Under the pieces are notes generated by a model. It had not been told where the DNA came from. It did not search any database and saw only the letters and a list, made by a program, of their open reading frames with translations. A program made the position numbers and the translations under genes. From contig NC_092567.1 of assembly GCF_037975245.1 (NCBI RefSeq), positions 26,673,376-26,737,375 of the forward strand: DNA of 64,000 nt, in the 5' to 3' direction. Origin of the DNA: Apostichopus japonicus. Lineage: Eukaryota > Echinodermata > Holothuroidea > Aspidochirotida > Stichopodidae. Shown here in pieces: positions 4,001 through 37,192 of this stretch; positions within the stretch are counted from its first letter, which is position 1, and every line of letters begins with the position of its first letter.

Positions 4001-7000
4001 ATGTTACTCAGGTGATGGAAAGAGAAAGATCAAGAAGGAGGTGCGGTGGCCGGGGGGAATCAATATTAACGAGAAGGGGACAGATGGTTCTTCCTGATGT
4101 GATCAAACTTTCAGGTTGTCAGGCTTCTCAAGCTTTACATTATACAAGCACTGCATATTTGGTGACTCAATTCCATTTGTGTGTTACAGTAAGGTGACCA
4201 TATTTTCCTGACTGGAATCAGGGACATTTATTGCATGACTGATATGGGGGAGAGGTGGGGGAGAGGGGAAAGGTGCTTAGATGTAAAATGGTGATACTTA
4301 GAAGCACTTTTTAAATCAATTTTATTTTCAAAAATGTAGCTTTTTCTTAGATGAAATTTTCTTACTTTACGTGCTTCTTTAAGAGCTCGTGAGTTGCTCA
4401 TGCTCACACTATAAGTGTCGTTGTGTCGCCGTAGTTGCCAATTATATGGTCGAAAGATACTAGATCGATCTAGCATATTTTAACAGTGTTTCCACTTTAC
4501 ACTGGCCCACCTGAAATGCTGGTTATAAGTTCCGTTCTGCGACTGCACACGTGACTAAATTTTGTTTTTTAAATTATTTTACTAATAATGTGGGATATTT
4601 TCGAAATTCCTGAACAATTTGACGAATCGGGGACATTTTCGGGGACACTTGTTTATCAGGGACAGCAGACTGTAATCGGGGACTGTCCCCAAAAATCGGG
4701 GACGTCTGGTCACCTTATGTTACAGTATCTCCTTTGGTTATTCCTGCAGGTGTCTGTGCTCTTTCCCCTTCCAGTGATCACCAGATATTAGTCTTTCCTG
4801 GTCACAAGCAAGGCAGTATACAGATTCCAGACTTGAGTGTAGTAGAATCAGGCTTTTCCAGTTCTCCTGTCACTATCAATGCCCATCAGGGTGAAATCCA
4901 GTGTATTGCAATAAACCAAGAGGGTACACGCGTGGCAACAGCATCATCAAAGGTAACAAAAGGGGCAAGGGAAGGGGGACATTGAATGGATACTACATGG
5001 TGTTTACCTTTAAAGAGAGATCGGAGCAGACCAAGTTAAAGCTGTTATAGCAGTGTACTATGGAGACCCAACCAACTTGCATGTCTGAGGTTACTAGGTT
5101 TTTTAAAAAGGAAATTTTTCTTTGTTGGTTCCAAGAATAATGACTATCAACTTTGAGAGAGATTTTTATGAATACTTGCTTGTAACACATACTGTAACTG
5201 TATAAACATAACAGTTTTTCTTGAGGTGGCTGTATCACTATTGGTAGTTTCTCAGGAATGTCAGGGAGTTATATACAACCATGGAGGGCAATAGTTATGA
5301 AAATGAAGTCAAGGCACAACAAAACTTGCAAACAGACACCATGGCTGCGGCTATGAATGGCATCATGTGAGTGTGGTTGGGTTGAATAACAGCTGTGTGC
5401 ACCATTTGGACAAGTAGAAATACTTGAATTAGTTTCTGACATGGTGCCCTAGACTCCCTTGATTGCATTATTCATCTGGTGTGGTGGGTGAGGTGTGGAG
5501 TGTAGGGTCGGGCAGTGTGCAGTAGGGTTTGTATAATTGTAGTTGTGAATTGCTCAGCTGATTTTTCAACAAAGGTTACTTACATGTGTTGTTAAGAAGT
5601 TTTAAACAATAATGGAGGAGAGTTATATTTAATCTAGGGTTAAATTGCTGCAGCTATGCTTGTGCTGACACAACAACAGAATTACATGACTCTACTCTTT
5701 GACACATGTTTCCTTTTATGCAGGGGACATTAATCAGAGTATTTGACACTACATCTCGTAAGCAGCTAGTGGAGCTTAGAAGAGGATCTGACCCTGCTAC
5801 CCTTTACTGGTAAGGGGGACAGGTTATCCTTCAATAAAATCCTTGTTTGCATGTAAATCACAGCAGAAGGCAAAAGATTCATTGTAAACAATTGTTGCAA
5901 AAAACTGTTTTCTTACGTAGTTGTGAACTGCTTTATTTACATTGAAAGTACTTGTATGCCAGTTTTCCACCACATACAAGAGTCAGTAGACCTACAAAGT
6001 GTTAAAATAAATGATAATTGCAATTCATCCAAATGCTGCATTTTCCATGATGTTTTTGTCGCTTAAAGAACCTGTAACTGTTTCTATGAATTCTAAATCT
6101 TGTCCCTGAAATAGTTCTCACATTAGTGTCAAACAGATCCACTAGCAGATTGGACATTTTGGAAAAAAGAAAGTGTTCTGGCATTTAAAGTACTCCAGAA
6201 GTATATGTGGTTGCACCCCTTCTCTATGCCCTGATTTAAAATTTGAGGGGGGAGGGGGCATGAAATTTGGCTTACATCCATTCTAGGGAGGGGTCAAAGT
6301 GGGGGGGGGGTGGTAAGGGAGCTTCAGTGCAGAGTTATGCTATCATTTCCATCACTTCAACTACATTTGTGTATTACAATTCAATCTTGGCCAAGTAAAC
6401 AACTTAGGGTACATACAAGTGGTGCTTTGCCATCCCGTTTTGACCCAAACATTTCTGTAGCAGAACTCTGAACCCCCCTCCCCTCTTCACCACTAATTAT
6501 GGCTACTTCATTTTGATTTTGACTGCATTTTAGAGGCTGTAGAAAAAACATAGAATTCAGTTATTAAACAACATCAATAAGAAATTATTTTATGGGTTGG
6601 AGATTTTATTCTTGTCTGTTTTCTCTTGCTGCAGCATCAACTTCAGTAACGATTCATGCTATCTGTGTGCATCTAGCGATAAAGGCACTGTCCACGTATT
6701 TGCCCTGAGTAACACCACATTAAACAGAAGATCAACGTAAGTAGTCTCATGCTATCTGTGTGCATCTAGCGATAAAGGCACTGTCCACGTATTTGCCCTG
6801 AGTAACACCACATTAAACAGACGATCAACGTAAGTAGGCTCATGCTATCTGTGTGCATCTAGCGATAAAGGCACTGTCCACGTATTTGCCCTGAGTAACA
6901 CCACATTAAACAGACGATCAACGTAAGTAGTCTCATGCTATCTGTGTGCATCTAGCGATAAAGGCACTGTCCACGTATTTGCCCTGAGTAACACCACATT

Positions 7001-8916
7001 AAACAGACGATCAACGTAAGTAGTCTCATGCTATCTGTGTGCATCTAGCGATAAAGGCACTGTCCACGTATTTGCCCTGAGTAACACCACATTAAACAGA
7101 TGATCAACGTAAGTAGTCTCATGCTATCTGTGTGCATCTAGCGATAAAGGCACTGTCCACGTATTTGCCCTGAGTAACACCACATTAAACAGACGATCAA
7201 CGTAAGTAGTCTCATGCTATCTGTGTGCATCTAGCGATAAAGGCACTGTCCACGTATTTGCCCTGAGTAACACCACATTAAACAGACGATCAACGTAAGT
7301 AGTCTCATGCTATCTGTGTGCATCTAGCGATAAAGGCACTGTCCACGTATTTGCCCCGAGTAACACCACATTAAACAGACGATCAACGTAAGTAGTCTCA
7401 TGCTATCTGTGTGCATCTAGCGATAAAGGCACTGTCCACGTATTTGCCCCGAGTAACACCACATTAAACAGACGATCAACGTAAGTAGTCTCATGCTATC
7501 TGTGTGCATCTAGCGATAAAGGCACTGTCCACGTATTTGCCCTGAGTAACACCACATTAAACAGACGATCAACGTAAGTAGTCTCATGGAACGCAGACTT
7601 CCGAGTGGTACTTGGTGGTTGGTACTCAGCAGTTTTTTTCATTATAGAAGTATGTTCAACCTCGCAAAACAATGTGGTTATGCTAATGAGCTGTACTTTG
7701 AAATTTGTGTTCAAGCACTTTCATCATAACATTTTTGAGGTTTTGTCACAAGAGTACTTCTTAAAAGCCTCTGTGTATGATGGCATCTCCTAAACCAGCC
7801 ATACAGTGAAATTAACTAGTCTGTCGTACATTGGATAGTGGAGCAGTGTGTATTTGCCTATGGCTACGAACAAGATTTAGCCAGTTTTCAGTTGCTGGCT
7901 TTAGGCAACAGTACAGTTATTCAGTGTGTGACAGTTCATGATATGTCCATTTTCAACAAAGTTATTACCAATCCTGGAAGAAACAATGTTTGCATAATTA
8001 CGAGTTTTCACCATCAAAAACTAAAACCGGACAGTTAATTTAAGTTATGTCTTTTTCAGTCGGGTATAGTGTGCAGATGGTTTTAAAATCTTGGTTGGTT
8101 GGGATGTAGAATTCTCAATGTAACTTCTCTGGTTGACGTCCTAATGTAATAGATTGTAGCTCTTTTACCTATGACCTTCAGTTTATGCATTTTAGAACAC
8201 ATATATACATTTGTATATCCTGAATTAATTTCATTGGTGGTTGACAACAAGGGAAGTAAAACAAAGCCAGTCTTATACAGTCTGTTTACAACCTTTCCCT
8301 GTCGAAATATTCACTTTCTTTTAACAATTGGAAGTATTTTGTACATGAAGCAAGTTGGACATTATCAGCTGGGTATGTTCAAACTGCTAGAAGTTGTCAA
8401 ATGGTCATTTCCTCCAGGTTCTGACAATTCCGATTCTATGACAATATTGAGGATTGTTCAGATAGAAACTTCAATATCTCTGGGTGGGTAAATGCCCTTT
8501 GGGTGGTAATAAAAAACTATTTGAGTTTATATAGCTATTACAACTTTATTTTAGAGCATTTTTCATGGAAATCCTGATTGTTTTTTTTAGGATGATATAT
8601 ACAGCCAATCAAAACTCATGAAAACTGACTGTCACTCATTATTACATTTAAGTTCTTTTGTTTATTTCATGTTCACTCCAAATATAGACTTGCCAAGGTT
8701 GGAATCAAAGGCCAGTACGTGGAATCTCAGTGGGATTTGGCTAACTTTACGGTTTCGGCAGAATGTGCGTGTATCTGTGCCTTTGTGCAGCCGTCCTCAA
8801 TCATCGCAGCCTGTGTCGATGGAACTTTCCACAAATACGTATTCACTCCGGAAGGCAGTTGTAACAGAGAGGCATACGATGAATACTTAGAACTCGGCGA
8901 CGATGAAGAATTTTAA
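1098..8916 (+). CDS. wdr45: WDR45/WIPI4-type PROPPIN, WD-repeat PI3P-binding autophagy protein, 9 exons
   Basis: Exons read from the sequence, all with GT-AG borders and compatible phase: 1098-1143, 1987-2061, 2436-2504, 3344-3467, 3816-3910, 4750-4952, 5724-5809, 6635-6736 and 8688-8916. Together they give 1029 nt, or 342 aa plus stop, close to the vertebrate WIPI4 length. Recognisable blocks include the first-blade [16 protein letters not shown] and IYVYSFP. The phosphoinositide-binding LRRG motif of PROPPINs lies at about residues 222-225, followed by DPATLYC. The C-terminal HKYVFTPEG block resembles WIPI4 more than WIPI3. Family knowledge: a seven-bladed beta-propeller that binds PI3P and PI(3,5)P2 and partners ATG2 at growing phagophores and ER contact sites. 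The start is the first in-frame Met and gives the typical short N-terminus. Oddities: the tail and donor of exon 8 are repeated ten times in intron 8, a hAT-like MITE ends about 30 bp before exon 6, and the end of the gene is partly duplicated downstream. Confidence 0.93.
1249..1857. repeat. Minisatellite, ~61-bp unit, about 10 copies (WDR45 intron 1)
   Basis: The unit contains TAGGGGTTGATTGGGATTC and ATGTTCCCTTAAATACTG and recurs every ~61 bp with few substitutions. Some copies carry small indels: one has lost the middle block near 1692, and one has a TTCC expansion near 1775. High identity implies recent expansion or homogenisation. It lies wholly inside intron 1. Confidence 0.95.
4191..4718. 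mobile_element. hAT-like MITE in WDR45 intron 5
   Basis: Terminal inverted repeats are AAGGTGACCA on the left and TGGTCACCTTAT on the right. They are bounded by a perfect 8-bp target duplication, GTTACAGT, at 4183-4190 and 4719-4726. The 8-bp duplication is typical of hAT superfamily transposition. The interior near the right end has several GGGGAC motifs and no transposase ORF, so it is non-autonomous. It ends about 30 bp before exon 6 of WDR45 and therefore lies next to the branch-point region. Confidence 0.85.
6655..7584 (+). repeat. 10 x 93-bp tandem array of a WDR45 exon tail plus its splice donor
   Basis: The unit starts inside exon 8 at TCATGCTATC and covers the last 82 bp of the exon, the GTAAGTAG donor and a few intron bases. 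Exact 93-bp steps place copies at 6655, 6748, 6841, 6934, 7027, 7120, 7213, 7306, 7399 and 7492. Only the first copy has the exon's acceptor and 5' part. Copies differ at a few bases: the first reads AGAAGATC where the others read AGACGATC or, once, AGATGATC. Later copies keep the exon sequence and donor. Reading through the first donor meets TAA in frame immediately. Confidence 0.97.
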
Positions 8917-22114: not shown

Positions 22115-22367
22115 CAGGGGCGTAGGAAAAGAAATCTCGGAAATCTAGGAAAGAAAAAAATCTCATTTGGAGCACCAAATTGCATCTAAGGCCAGGTGAA
22201 AATGCAAATGGAGTGGGTGTTGAAGTGTGCTACATTGCACCACATTGCATCTGAGGCCACCTGGAAATGCCAAAAAAATTCCACCCCCTTCCCTTGGACC
22301 CCCCCCCCCCCGGCCGGCCATCAGTCTTTAGCCCCCCCCCCCTCACTCAAAAATTCCTACGCCACTG
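22115..22367. mobile_element. hAT-like MITE, 253 bp
   Basis: Ends CAGGGGCGTAGGAA and TTCCTACGCCACTG, with the perfect 8-bp duplication TATACCTG (22107-22114 and 22368-22375). The interior is related in inverted orientation to the MITE at 23452-23823, sharing the GGCCGGCCATCAG and TTGCATCT blocks. Confidence 0.88.
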
Positions 22368-22625
22368 TATACCTGATTTTTTATTCAAAATACGTGTAGG
22401 TGCAAACTACAGGCGAAGGCCGGTTTGCATTGGGCTCAGCTTTTCATTTCCATTTTATTCGTTTACCTTTAGTTTTCTACTTCTTTTATGATTTTTTTAC
22501 ATGTTGGCTCTTACATTCAATTTTATTATTGCATTTACACCTATGTTTTCTTTTTCTAGCAATTGGGGAAGATAAGCCTCGACAGTCCGAGCTTATGGCA
22601 AGCCGTTTTAACATTTACCTCGCGA

Positions 22626-23060
22626 TTCGACTTAAGTCGAATACATTTCACTTAAGTGGAATTCAATTTCACTTAAGCAGAATACTATTTAACTTAAGTG
22701 GAATTCTATTTCACTTAAGTGGAATACCATTCCACTTAAGCTTAATTGTATTTTACTTAAGCTGAATTCATCAACTTGTCACTGCATTTTACTTAAGCTA
22801 AATTCTATTTCACTTAAGTGGAATTGCATTCCACTTAAGTGGAATTGTATTCCACTTAAGTGGAAATGCATTTCACTTAAGTGGAATTGTATTCTACTTA
22901 AGTGGAATACAATTCCACTTAAGTGGAGGGTCCTGTCTATTTCACTTAAGTGGAATACAATTCCACTTAAGTGGAAATGCATTCCACTTAAGTGAAATGT
23001 GATTGGATAGTCTATTTCACTTAAGTGGAATGTGATTGGCTAGTCTATTCCACTTAAGTG
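22626..23060. repeat. Left array of CTTAAG-centred palindromes
   Basis: About 19 CTTAAG cores, most in the full palindrome TTCCACTTAAGTGGAA or the variant with GTGAAA, spaced mostly 20-24 bp (roughly two helical turns) with wider gaps near 22760-22790 and 22990-23050. The repeat reads as HLSGI-type peptide in all frames on both strands, which is a by-product and not a protein. Confidence 0.95.
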
Positions 23061-23451
23061 GAATGTGATTGGCTAGTACATTTACCGCCAAATTTTACCC
23101 ATGCCTTTGCGCGCCATTATAAACAACTTGCCGCGATACGTGTACGTACGTACGTGGTGTCGATATGTGCACAATGAATATCGGCTGTCCATCGGGATCC
23201 AGCTAGCACTTAACATCCGTGCAAGGTGTGTACGTACGTACCTGACCTGGTACCTGACGAATACCATTACCAAAATAAAGCCATGGCAAATACATTATAA
23301 GTGGTTGGAGCTACAGCCGAAAACGCATTGACAAGGGCAAGAAAACGTTTTACTTTTTGTGGATTTGGGGTTTTGGATGGAATCTTTTATTTCGTCAAAA
23401 GTTTCACTATCTAAAAAATTACAAATTCTGCCTTTATTACTTAAACAAGAT

Positions 23452-23823
23452 CAGTGGCGTAGGAAGGTACTTTTGAGTGGGGGGGCTGAAGACTGATGGC
23501 CGGCCTGGGGGAGGGGTCTAAGGGGAGGGGGTGTCCCCCTCCCCTTTGGATTTTTTTTGCATTTCCAGGTGGCCTCAGATGCAATTTGGTGCAATATAGC
23601 ACACTTCAACACCCACTCCATTTTGTAAAGAATTTTGCATTTTCACCTGGCCTTAGATGCAATTTGGTGCTTCAAATGAGATTTTTTTCTCATTTGGAAA
23701 TGAAAAAGGGGTTTTCTGACTTGCGGAGCGGGGGGGGCGGAACGATACTTCCGCCCCCCATATTTTTCACTGGGGGGGGCTGGCGCCCCCCCCAGCCCCC
23801 CCCCCCCGGTTCCTACGCCCTTG
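23452..23823. mobile_element. hAT-like MITE nested in the palindrome element
   Basis: Ends CAGTGGCGTAGGAA and TTCCTACGCCCTTG, with the perfect 8-bp duplication AACAAGAT (23444-23451 and 23824-23831). It has G/C homopolymer runs and no coding capacity. Because it is intact inside the palindrome element it inserted later. Confidence 0.88.
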
Positions 23824-24075
23824 AACAAGATGTAAGTCGCCTCTGTTGTGCATCATACTGATTGTTCCCCTGTGCAAGTGAGGAAACAACACTTCGAATT
23901 GTGTCTCTAACAACAATTATTTGATCGCATTCCAGCAATGTTAGATGTGAATGATTAGCCGTAGCCATGATGTACACGTGCAACGAGGATCGACTAAATC
24001 ATCATATGTGATGAGCAATTGAATGCGTTACGACGAACAATACCCTAAATTGTATTTATATGTAAGCCACATATC

Positions 24076-24585
24076 AACATTTCCACTTAAGTGGAATTGT
24101 ATTTTACTAAAGCAGAATAGAATTCCACTTAAGTGAAATTGACGCCCAAAAGATGTTATTCCACTTAAGTGAAATTGAATTCCACTTAAGTGAAATTGAA
24201 TTCCACTTAAGTGGAATACATTTCCACTTAAGTGGAATTGTATTTCACTTAAGTGGAAATGCATTCCACTTAAGTGGAATTGTATTCCACTTAAGTGAAA
24301 TAGATGGGCTATTTAGCTTAAGTGGAATACAATTCCACTTAAGTGGAAATGTATTCCACTTAAGTGAAATACAATTCCACTTAAGTGGAATGCAATTCCA
24401 CTTAAGTGGAATTCATTTCCACTTAAGTGAAATAGAAATGTCCATTTCTACTTAAGTGAAATTGAATTCCACTTAAGTGAAATTGAATTCCACTTAAGTG
24501 GAATACATTTCACTTAAGTGGAATTCCATTTCACTTAAGTAGAATGTATTCCACTTAAGTGAAATGTATTCGACTTAAGTCTAAT
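24076..24585. repeat. Right array of CTTAAG-centred palindromes
   Basis: About 22 CTTAAG cores with 20-24 bp spacing, same consensus as the left array and ending in the inverted terminal repeat. One unit near 24108 has decayed to ACTAAAG. Together the two arrays and TIRs could pair over several hundred bases. Confidence 0.95.
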
Positions 24586-25260
24586 TGCGAGGTAAATGTT
24601 AAAACGGCTTGCCATACGAGCTACCCTCTCAAAATGACCTATATACTTACCCTCGAAAATACTTACATGACTATCTTGAATGACGCTATCTTCACACGGT
24701 AACAATAACACCTAGATGCCACCAATCATATGACGGTCCATCGAGGTAAATGAATCATTCACCTCGCTGTGACGGTCTAGGTTGGGCTGATTGTATAGCT
24801 TCCGCGTCAAATTAACAAACTCCCAAAGTAAGTGAAATTTCGGCACAACAGCTCAGCTCTACCGTGTAAAATAGCGTTTTTGTGTGGACACTATATATTG
24901 CGCATAGCTCGTTCGAACATATGTTGTTTTGTACATAAAGGGCTCGATACTATATCCAGTTTATAATAACACTCACATGATGTTTGATCATCAGTAAATA
25001 CGTAACAATGCTATTTGTGCGAACAATAACACAGTGACAAAGAAACTTACCACAATCTGCACGCTCGTGAGAACTTCACTGTGATTTGCTCGTTCAGGTG
25101 ATATGTTCCAAGCTATATGCCTACTTGTACAAAATTTGACTGACTAAATCAAGCAAAGACTGAAAGAGTATTGGAACAGTTTAAAGACATTTCTTTGAAC
25201 GGCTGATCCGACTACACATAGTATTCAAGTATTAATCGTCGTGTAGCTTTAACTTTAAAA

Positions 25261-37192
<11,932 letters not shown>

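Follow-up and report, generated by a model that had tools for sequence, protein, structure and literature searches.

Among described DNA transposons, the closest likeness to the element reported here is probably found in the IS3EU superfamily. Fungal IS3EU elements are said, in the available part of one report, to make 6-bp target-site duplications (TSDs) and to have inverted ends of more than 30 bp that read TAYGG..CCRTA (PMC12730594). The accessible part of a second report describes the complete IS3EU families of Repbase as always ending in TA..TA and usually making 6-bp duplications, and GingerRoot, placed within the IS3EU lineage, as making 6-bp duplications too (PMC10045372). In Styx, a fungal element with coding sequences in common with IS3EU, new 6-bp duplications arose in a pedigree. 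We analysed a stretch of 64,000 nucleotides of the sea cucumber Apostichopus japonicus (NC_092567.1, positions 26,673,376 to 26,737,375 of the forward strand; the window hereafter), in which an element of 2,023 bp (22594-24616) carries an array of CTTAAG-centred palindromes inside each of its ends. Our reading, to which we give a probability of roughly 55%, is that it represents a non-autonomous cut-and-paste family with IS3EU/GingerRoot-type ends, whose arrays would bind a transposase or an accessory protein.

That the element is a genuine dispersed transposon is well supported, because it has further copies, 6-bp duplications and an empty site. In the window copy the terminal inverted repeats (TIRs; left on the plus strand at 22594..22662, beginning TATGGCAAGCCG; right on the minus strand at 24548..24616, ending CGGCTTGCCATA) are 69 bp long and identical at 67 of 69 positions (2 mismatches), and CGAGCT borders the element on each side (22588..22593 and 24617..24622). 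In the genome searched (671.6 Mb in 35 contigs; C and L labels denote its contigs and the loci or copies read), the exact 30-bp terminus occurs 170 times, as against 0 for the reversed control, and a 107-bp left-end query gave 728 candidates, the 40 scored ones matching at 98-100% over 105-107 bp. Twenty-two elements were read at both ends, namely 20 copies with long flanks, the window copy and L078 (L077 was left out of this set, its flanks being common to L077 and L078). Identical 6-bp duplications border 20 of the 22, in 19 different sequences when strand is ignored, while L060 and L073 are one base off. Both termini were recovered in the 20 long-flank copies (at most 4 mismatches over 26 bp), and among the first 100 of the 170 termini at least 27 facing pairs within 6 kb delimit stretches of 1,404 to 3,866 bp. 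Full copies measure about 1.64 kb and hold 42 palindromes (L069, for example); by eye, most of 21 elements repeat the order of spacings, with its breaks of 36, 27, 33, 33 and 29 bp, and losses of single units are also seen among them. For L059, inserted into a multi-copy repeat, joining the flanks through a single CGGGAG yields a sequence that has 20 exact occurrences and, with up to 3 mismatches, 1,425 (control, 0). The original prediction, made from the letters of the window, had proposed a transposon with inverted ends of about 70 bp and a 6-bp CGAGCT duplication, to be abandoned if other copies or their 6-bp duplications were missing, and had advised looking for single-target empty sites; these points were borne out, and its suggested terminus search yielded full-length copies, although no coding relative was found among the copies read.

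The repeat matched by the L059 flank is arranged in tandem at steps of 373 bp, in arrays of both orientations (C2:23246000-23260000); it looks tRNA-like by eye, and ARAGORN found no tRNA in L059. L077 (C12) and L078 (C4) share the flanks adjoining the element, the TSD TGCACG and similar open frames nearby, and this insertion appears, from these sequences, to have been copied along with its host repeat. Two pairs of termini in opposite orientation have outer ends only 10 and 19 bp apart (C1:11142502-11142571 and C2:18661331-18661409), like elements placed end to end.

Judged by its ends only, the family probably falls in the IS3EU/GingerRoot superfamily. Its termini, TATGGC..GCCATA, fit both TA..TA and TAYGG..CCRTA, the inverted ends of the window copy are well over 30 bp (69 bp), and the duplications are of 6 bp (20/22 identical, 2 with one mismatch), all of which resemble IS3EU/GingerRoot as described in the available portions of the two reports (PMC12730594, PMC10045372). 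The family is unlike the elements described there in that the copies read are without a transposase, the ends run on into palindrome arrays and the targets mostly end in CG; neither palindrome arrays nor CG-ended targets are mentioned for IS3EU/GingerRoot in those portions (PMC12730594, PMC10045372).

The preference for CG-ended targets is new here. Among the 20 elements with identical duplications, which are the ones used for the p value, 19 duplications start or finish with CG, as against 5.0% of 214,158 flanking 6-mers (p about 3e-24), and the consensus after symmetrising reads CGNNCG (82% for both G at position 2 and C at position 5). Of the two imperfect duplications, that of L060 has no CG at either edge and that of L073 has CG in one of its two copies. 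Genome-wide, CG adjoins the terminus at 107 of 170 ends, and the flanking 6-mer has CG at one edge in 83 of the first 100 of these, a count in which both ends of one element and repeats of one insertion are entered separately, so that the ends are not independent. By eye, 9 of 12 further one-sided flanks (L048-L056) also have CG at the edge. Exact termini adjoined by CG recur every 170-350 kb along C19 (31.0-32.4 Mb) and C20 (0.28-1.24 Mb), and also on C4, C11 and C12, mostly in one orientation per contig.

The palindromes were predicted to number about 40 in two arrays, and the window element indeed holds 41 exact CTTAAG cores (left array 19, right array 22), where 1,000 first-order Markov resamplings of the element gave 0.57 on average and never more than 4; their density is 20.3 per kb in the element versus 0.24 per kb in the remaining window. 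The arrays repeat an 18-bp dyad, ATTYCACTTAAGTGRAAT, followed by a 3-bp linker whose middle base is G or C in 29 of 29 cases. The left array (22625..23064) comprises 19 units with cores from 22631 to 23053, spaced mostly by 21 bp with breaks of 36, 27, 33 and 33, and its first, variant palindrome, ATTCGACTTAAGTCGAAT, already lies within the inner part of the left TIR. The right array (24080..24585) has 22 exact cores (24086 to 24574) and one decayed unit at 24107, the 42nd of the lattice, whose core is mutated in the window copy and intact as CTTAAG in the majority sequence of 15 copies. Aligned in inverted orientation, the two arrays of the window copy are identical at 419 of 483 ungapped columns, and at least one perfect 9-bp half is present in 32 of the 42 units. 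Counting the unit at 24107, the 40 within-array steps measure 21 bp in 29 cases and 20 bp in 4, the rest being 27, 29, 33 or 36 bp, so the predicted spacing of about two helical turns is right step by step (33/40 at 20-21 bp) but not overall, since phase is lost across the 27-, 29-, 33- and 36-bp breaks and is restricted to blocks. At a period of 10.5 bp, R was 0.35 on the left and 0.10 on the right, values that were also attained in 73% and 98% of the random-gap controls. Protein binding along one DNA face over the entire array, which the original prediction had drawn from a regular phasing, is therefore not supported, because the breaks destroy the phase; its dimeric binder fares better, in that the dyads look constrained as protein sites would be.

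This constraint is supported by how differences are distributed over the units. In L069, which is 99.6% identical to the majority sequence without gaps, the 42 units show no difference in the core (0/252) or in the outer TT/AA (0/168; together 0/420), and the other eight arm positions differ in 59 of 336 cases; in the 42 units of the window copy the corresponding differences are 1, 1 and 60. Singletons were counted in the 15 of 21 elements that were aligned (L058, L066, L068, L072, L073 and L074 were excluded for deletions, unsettled orientation or a large insert) and amount to 26/3,609 in the core, 8/2,403 in TT/AA, 56/4,806 in the arm, 41/2,711 in the linker and 95/9,386 in the interior; the low rate in the TIR is biased, as copies were chosen by similarity to the first 107 bp. 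Between-unit differences in L069 and between-copy singletons are distributed differently (Fisher p about 2e-9), and since core and TT/AA do acquire singletons, these sites are not simply mutation-cold. We grade a selected hairpin or cruciform as unlikely, as the dyad partners at +/-3 match in only 16 of 42 units, below chance (p 0.011), though those at +/-2 match above it; recognition of half-sites by a dimer would fit better.

The family has a foldback-like architecture (a term of layout and not of superfamily), in that its long inverted ends are made up of internal repeats and enclose a short middle that is non-coding. The middle of the window copy (23065..24079) is without a long open frame outside an insert that splits it (see below), and the window element has no open frame of transposase length. 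Ac/Ds, Spm and other elements have many short subterminal transposase sites that are not known to be back-to-back dyads; the present family is like them in its many short sites inside the ends and differs by its back-to-back dyads. P elements make duplications of 7-8 bp, and the 6 bp found here lie outside the 7-10 bp of Mutator/P foldback elements. In Galileo, a foldback-like member of the P superfamily, the THAP domain of the transposase has multiple binding sites, which lie in tandem repeats within the long inverted ends, so far as the available text goes (PMC3688188), and the likeness extends to long inverted ends whose internal repeats contain several protein sites (PMC3688188, PMC3573991, in part); the present unit, in contrast, is an 18-bp palindrome with a 3-bp linker. 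Tetris, a Drosophila virilis foldback, is similarly non-autonomous with tandem repeats within inverted ends, but its units are of about 220 bp, its duplications of 8-10 bp, and its authors, in the part available, suggest Mutator (PMC4079207). The earlier view that no known superfamily has this design is probably wrong, as ends and duplication match IS3EU/GingerRoot and site arrays are known from Galileo, on the available parts of these reports (PMC12730594, PMC10045372, PMC3688188). With its palindromic, operator-like arrays and CG-ended target, the family is an unusual variant that combines IS3EU-like ends with a foldback-like architecture.

In the mechanism we propose, an integrase-like DDE transposase supplied in trans would cut at TATGGC..GCCATA, and the ends would be joined to points 6 bp apart in a target mostly starting or finishing with CG (CGNNCG), producing the 6-bp duplication. 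The 42 dyads TTnnnCTTAAGnnnAA of each full copy would be putative binding sites of a dimeric DNA-binding protein, most likely the DNA-binding domain of the transposase itself or an accessory protein of a presumed autonomous element, and the loading of many dimers on each end could raise specificity and pair the ends. We infer both what the binder is and that it takes part in pairing the ends; a precedent for the loading of multiple sites is the Galileo THAP domain on its tandem repeats, as far as the report is available (PMC3688188). More tentatively, and with considerable doubt, we propose an animal IS3EU-like system in which the ends are operator arrays of about 20 back-to-back dyads that nucleate a multimeric transposase, with an integrase that reads CpG at the target edges (CGNNCG). 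If so, CpG-edge reading would link the choice of target with CpG content or the state of methylation, and the CG-ended target raises the question of whether insertion is chosen by CpG and is methylation-sensitive. IS3EU-type elements seem little studied in animals, and a literature search found no paper joining IS3EU with 'subterminal'. The dyad, readable, constrained and present in 42 units of a full copy, could also serve directly as DNA bait for the protein by which the transposon is moved.

Candidates for a coding partner were found among integrase genes of the rva_4 type (PF24764), which gave 143 matches, many in open frames and many on C17. The 7 kb of one such locus, L079, revealed no TA..TA ends accompanied by a 6-bp duplication; two copies 98-99% identical to it match from the first base of the locus, and at least one end of this element therefore lies outside it. 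Three rva_4 copies (on C17 and others) are 98-99% identical over more than 6.4 kb, which suggests, from identity of sequence, a recently active element. An open frame of 29 residues in L082 was rejected as the end of a parent gene; it belongs to the end of another high-copy nested element. Of 172 candidate places 40 were scored, and in every one of the other 39 the match to the L082 stretch breaks off at position 85-91.

Several observations weigh against a non-autonomous family moved by an IS3EU-like transposase that binds its arrays. No transposase-bearing copy was seen among the copies read or from the search for the exact terminus, with the first 100 of 170 places listed, and the rva_4 match nearest to a listed exact terminus (on C1-C14, by eye, among the matches listed) is about 94 kb away. 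A stretch of 11.2 kb with CGTCCG at both ends (C21:10706882-10718060) was rejected as the autonomous parent; it is a non-autonomous copy with a nested high-copy element, and the 250 bp read at its centre (L080) have no long open frame. Neither edge of the flanking 6-mer has CG in 17 of the first 100 of the 170 ends, and one of the two empty-site tests came back empty, with no site found for L078 even allowing 2 mismatches. As to the dyads, the +/-2 partners match in 33 of 42 units, more than by chance (p 0.003). The units of L069 are related by duplication, with 20 distinct 18-mers among 42, and the 59 arm differences are therefore not independent events. Singleton rates of 0.33% in TT/AA and 0.72% in the core compare with 1.01% in the interior (core versus interior p 0.13), and part of the contrast taken for constraint may be mutational or derived from the alignment.

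The arrays may instead be bound by a host factor, such as a homeodomain protein of the NK-2 class, in which case the element would carry a ready-made enhancer or expression platform; this is possible, though in our view improbable. The constraint falls on a dyad, the dyad contains CCACTTAAGTGG, and what we take to be the NK-2-class site, TTAAGTG(G), is present on both strands of each consensus palindrome; the string TTAAGTGG was not seen in the 8 of 581 Nkx2-5/homeodomain papers that were listed. A host factor fits poorly with the invariance in L069 of the outer TT/AA at +/-4,5 when +/-2,3, which lie inside that presumed site, are the most variable arm positions, and the inverted order of the arrays at the two ends is what transposase sites would be expected to show.

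It is unlikely that the palindromes are a selfish minisatellite that expanded in the inverted ends with no role in movement, its uneven conservation reflecting array spread only. The units are tandem, copies vary by their gain or loss, and some copies are rich in array and poor in middle (17 cores in the 454 bp of L058, 39 in the 899 bp of L074), but in L069 the between-unit differences avoid 10 of 18 positions entirely and the between-copy singletons do not, which would be unexpected of neutral repeats.

Dada and Polinton-like superfamilies make 6-bp duplications as well, and hAT ends are of the CA..TG type. We think it equally unlikely that the family belongs to one of these 6-bp superfamilies (hAT6, Dada, Polinton-like) and has TAYGG ends by coincidence. 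In its favour, the assignment was made from ends only, and hAT elements, which usually make 8-bp duplications, are mentioned to include hAT6 families with 6 bp (PMC12730594, available part). Against it, TATGGC..GCCATA, inverted ends of more than 30 bp and the 6-bp duplication are all as reported for IS3EU in the available text, and a 6-bp duplication with TATGGC ends departs from hAT, whose usual 8 bp are seen at the 372-bp insert nested in the window copy. A local inverted satellite, to which two inverted tandem arrays in one place might point, is rejected by the 170 exact termini, by the separate 6-bp duplications that border 20 of 22 elements and by the empty site.

About 380 bp of the middle of the window copy are this nested insert (23452-23823, 372 bp; 23444..23831 with its duplications), which has the ends CAGTGGCGTAGGAA and TTCCTACGCCCTTG and the 8-bp duplication AACAAGAT (23444-23451 and 23824-23831) and is presumably hAT-like, judging from its ends and the length of its duplication. 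Of the 20 other elements 19 lack it, and L067 has a 90%-identical relative at a different position. Part of the insert (23550-23690) recurs in inverted orientation a short way to the left of the element (22152-22279), with 96-98% identity over arms of 74 and 57 bp.

A literature search on the palindrome core gave nothing relevant, judged by title. The paired palindrome pattern occurred in 0 viral stretches, with two single 17-mer matches in viral contigs, and the terminus was not found in prokaryote genomes. Prokaryotes gave 24 stretches with palindrome pairs or short groups, mostly from Bacteroidaceae, and no long arrays. In Bacteroidaceae and related metagenome-assembled genomes (L004-L026), CACTTAAGTG palindromes form groups of 2-4 with a usual spacing of 22-23 bp, and several of these genomes have them at two or more loci; they are perhaps a bacterial repeat or regulator site, which we take to have no relation to the transposon. 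Elsewhere in the window, a tandem repeat at 6654-7588 (93 bp x 10, 99% matches) lies 1.7 kb from an open frame with a weak PROPPIN match, and another at 34690-35357 (50 bp x 13, 97% matches) coincides in part with an open frame that matches an aspartyl protease.
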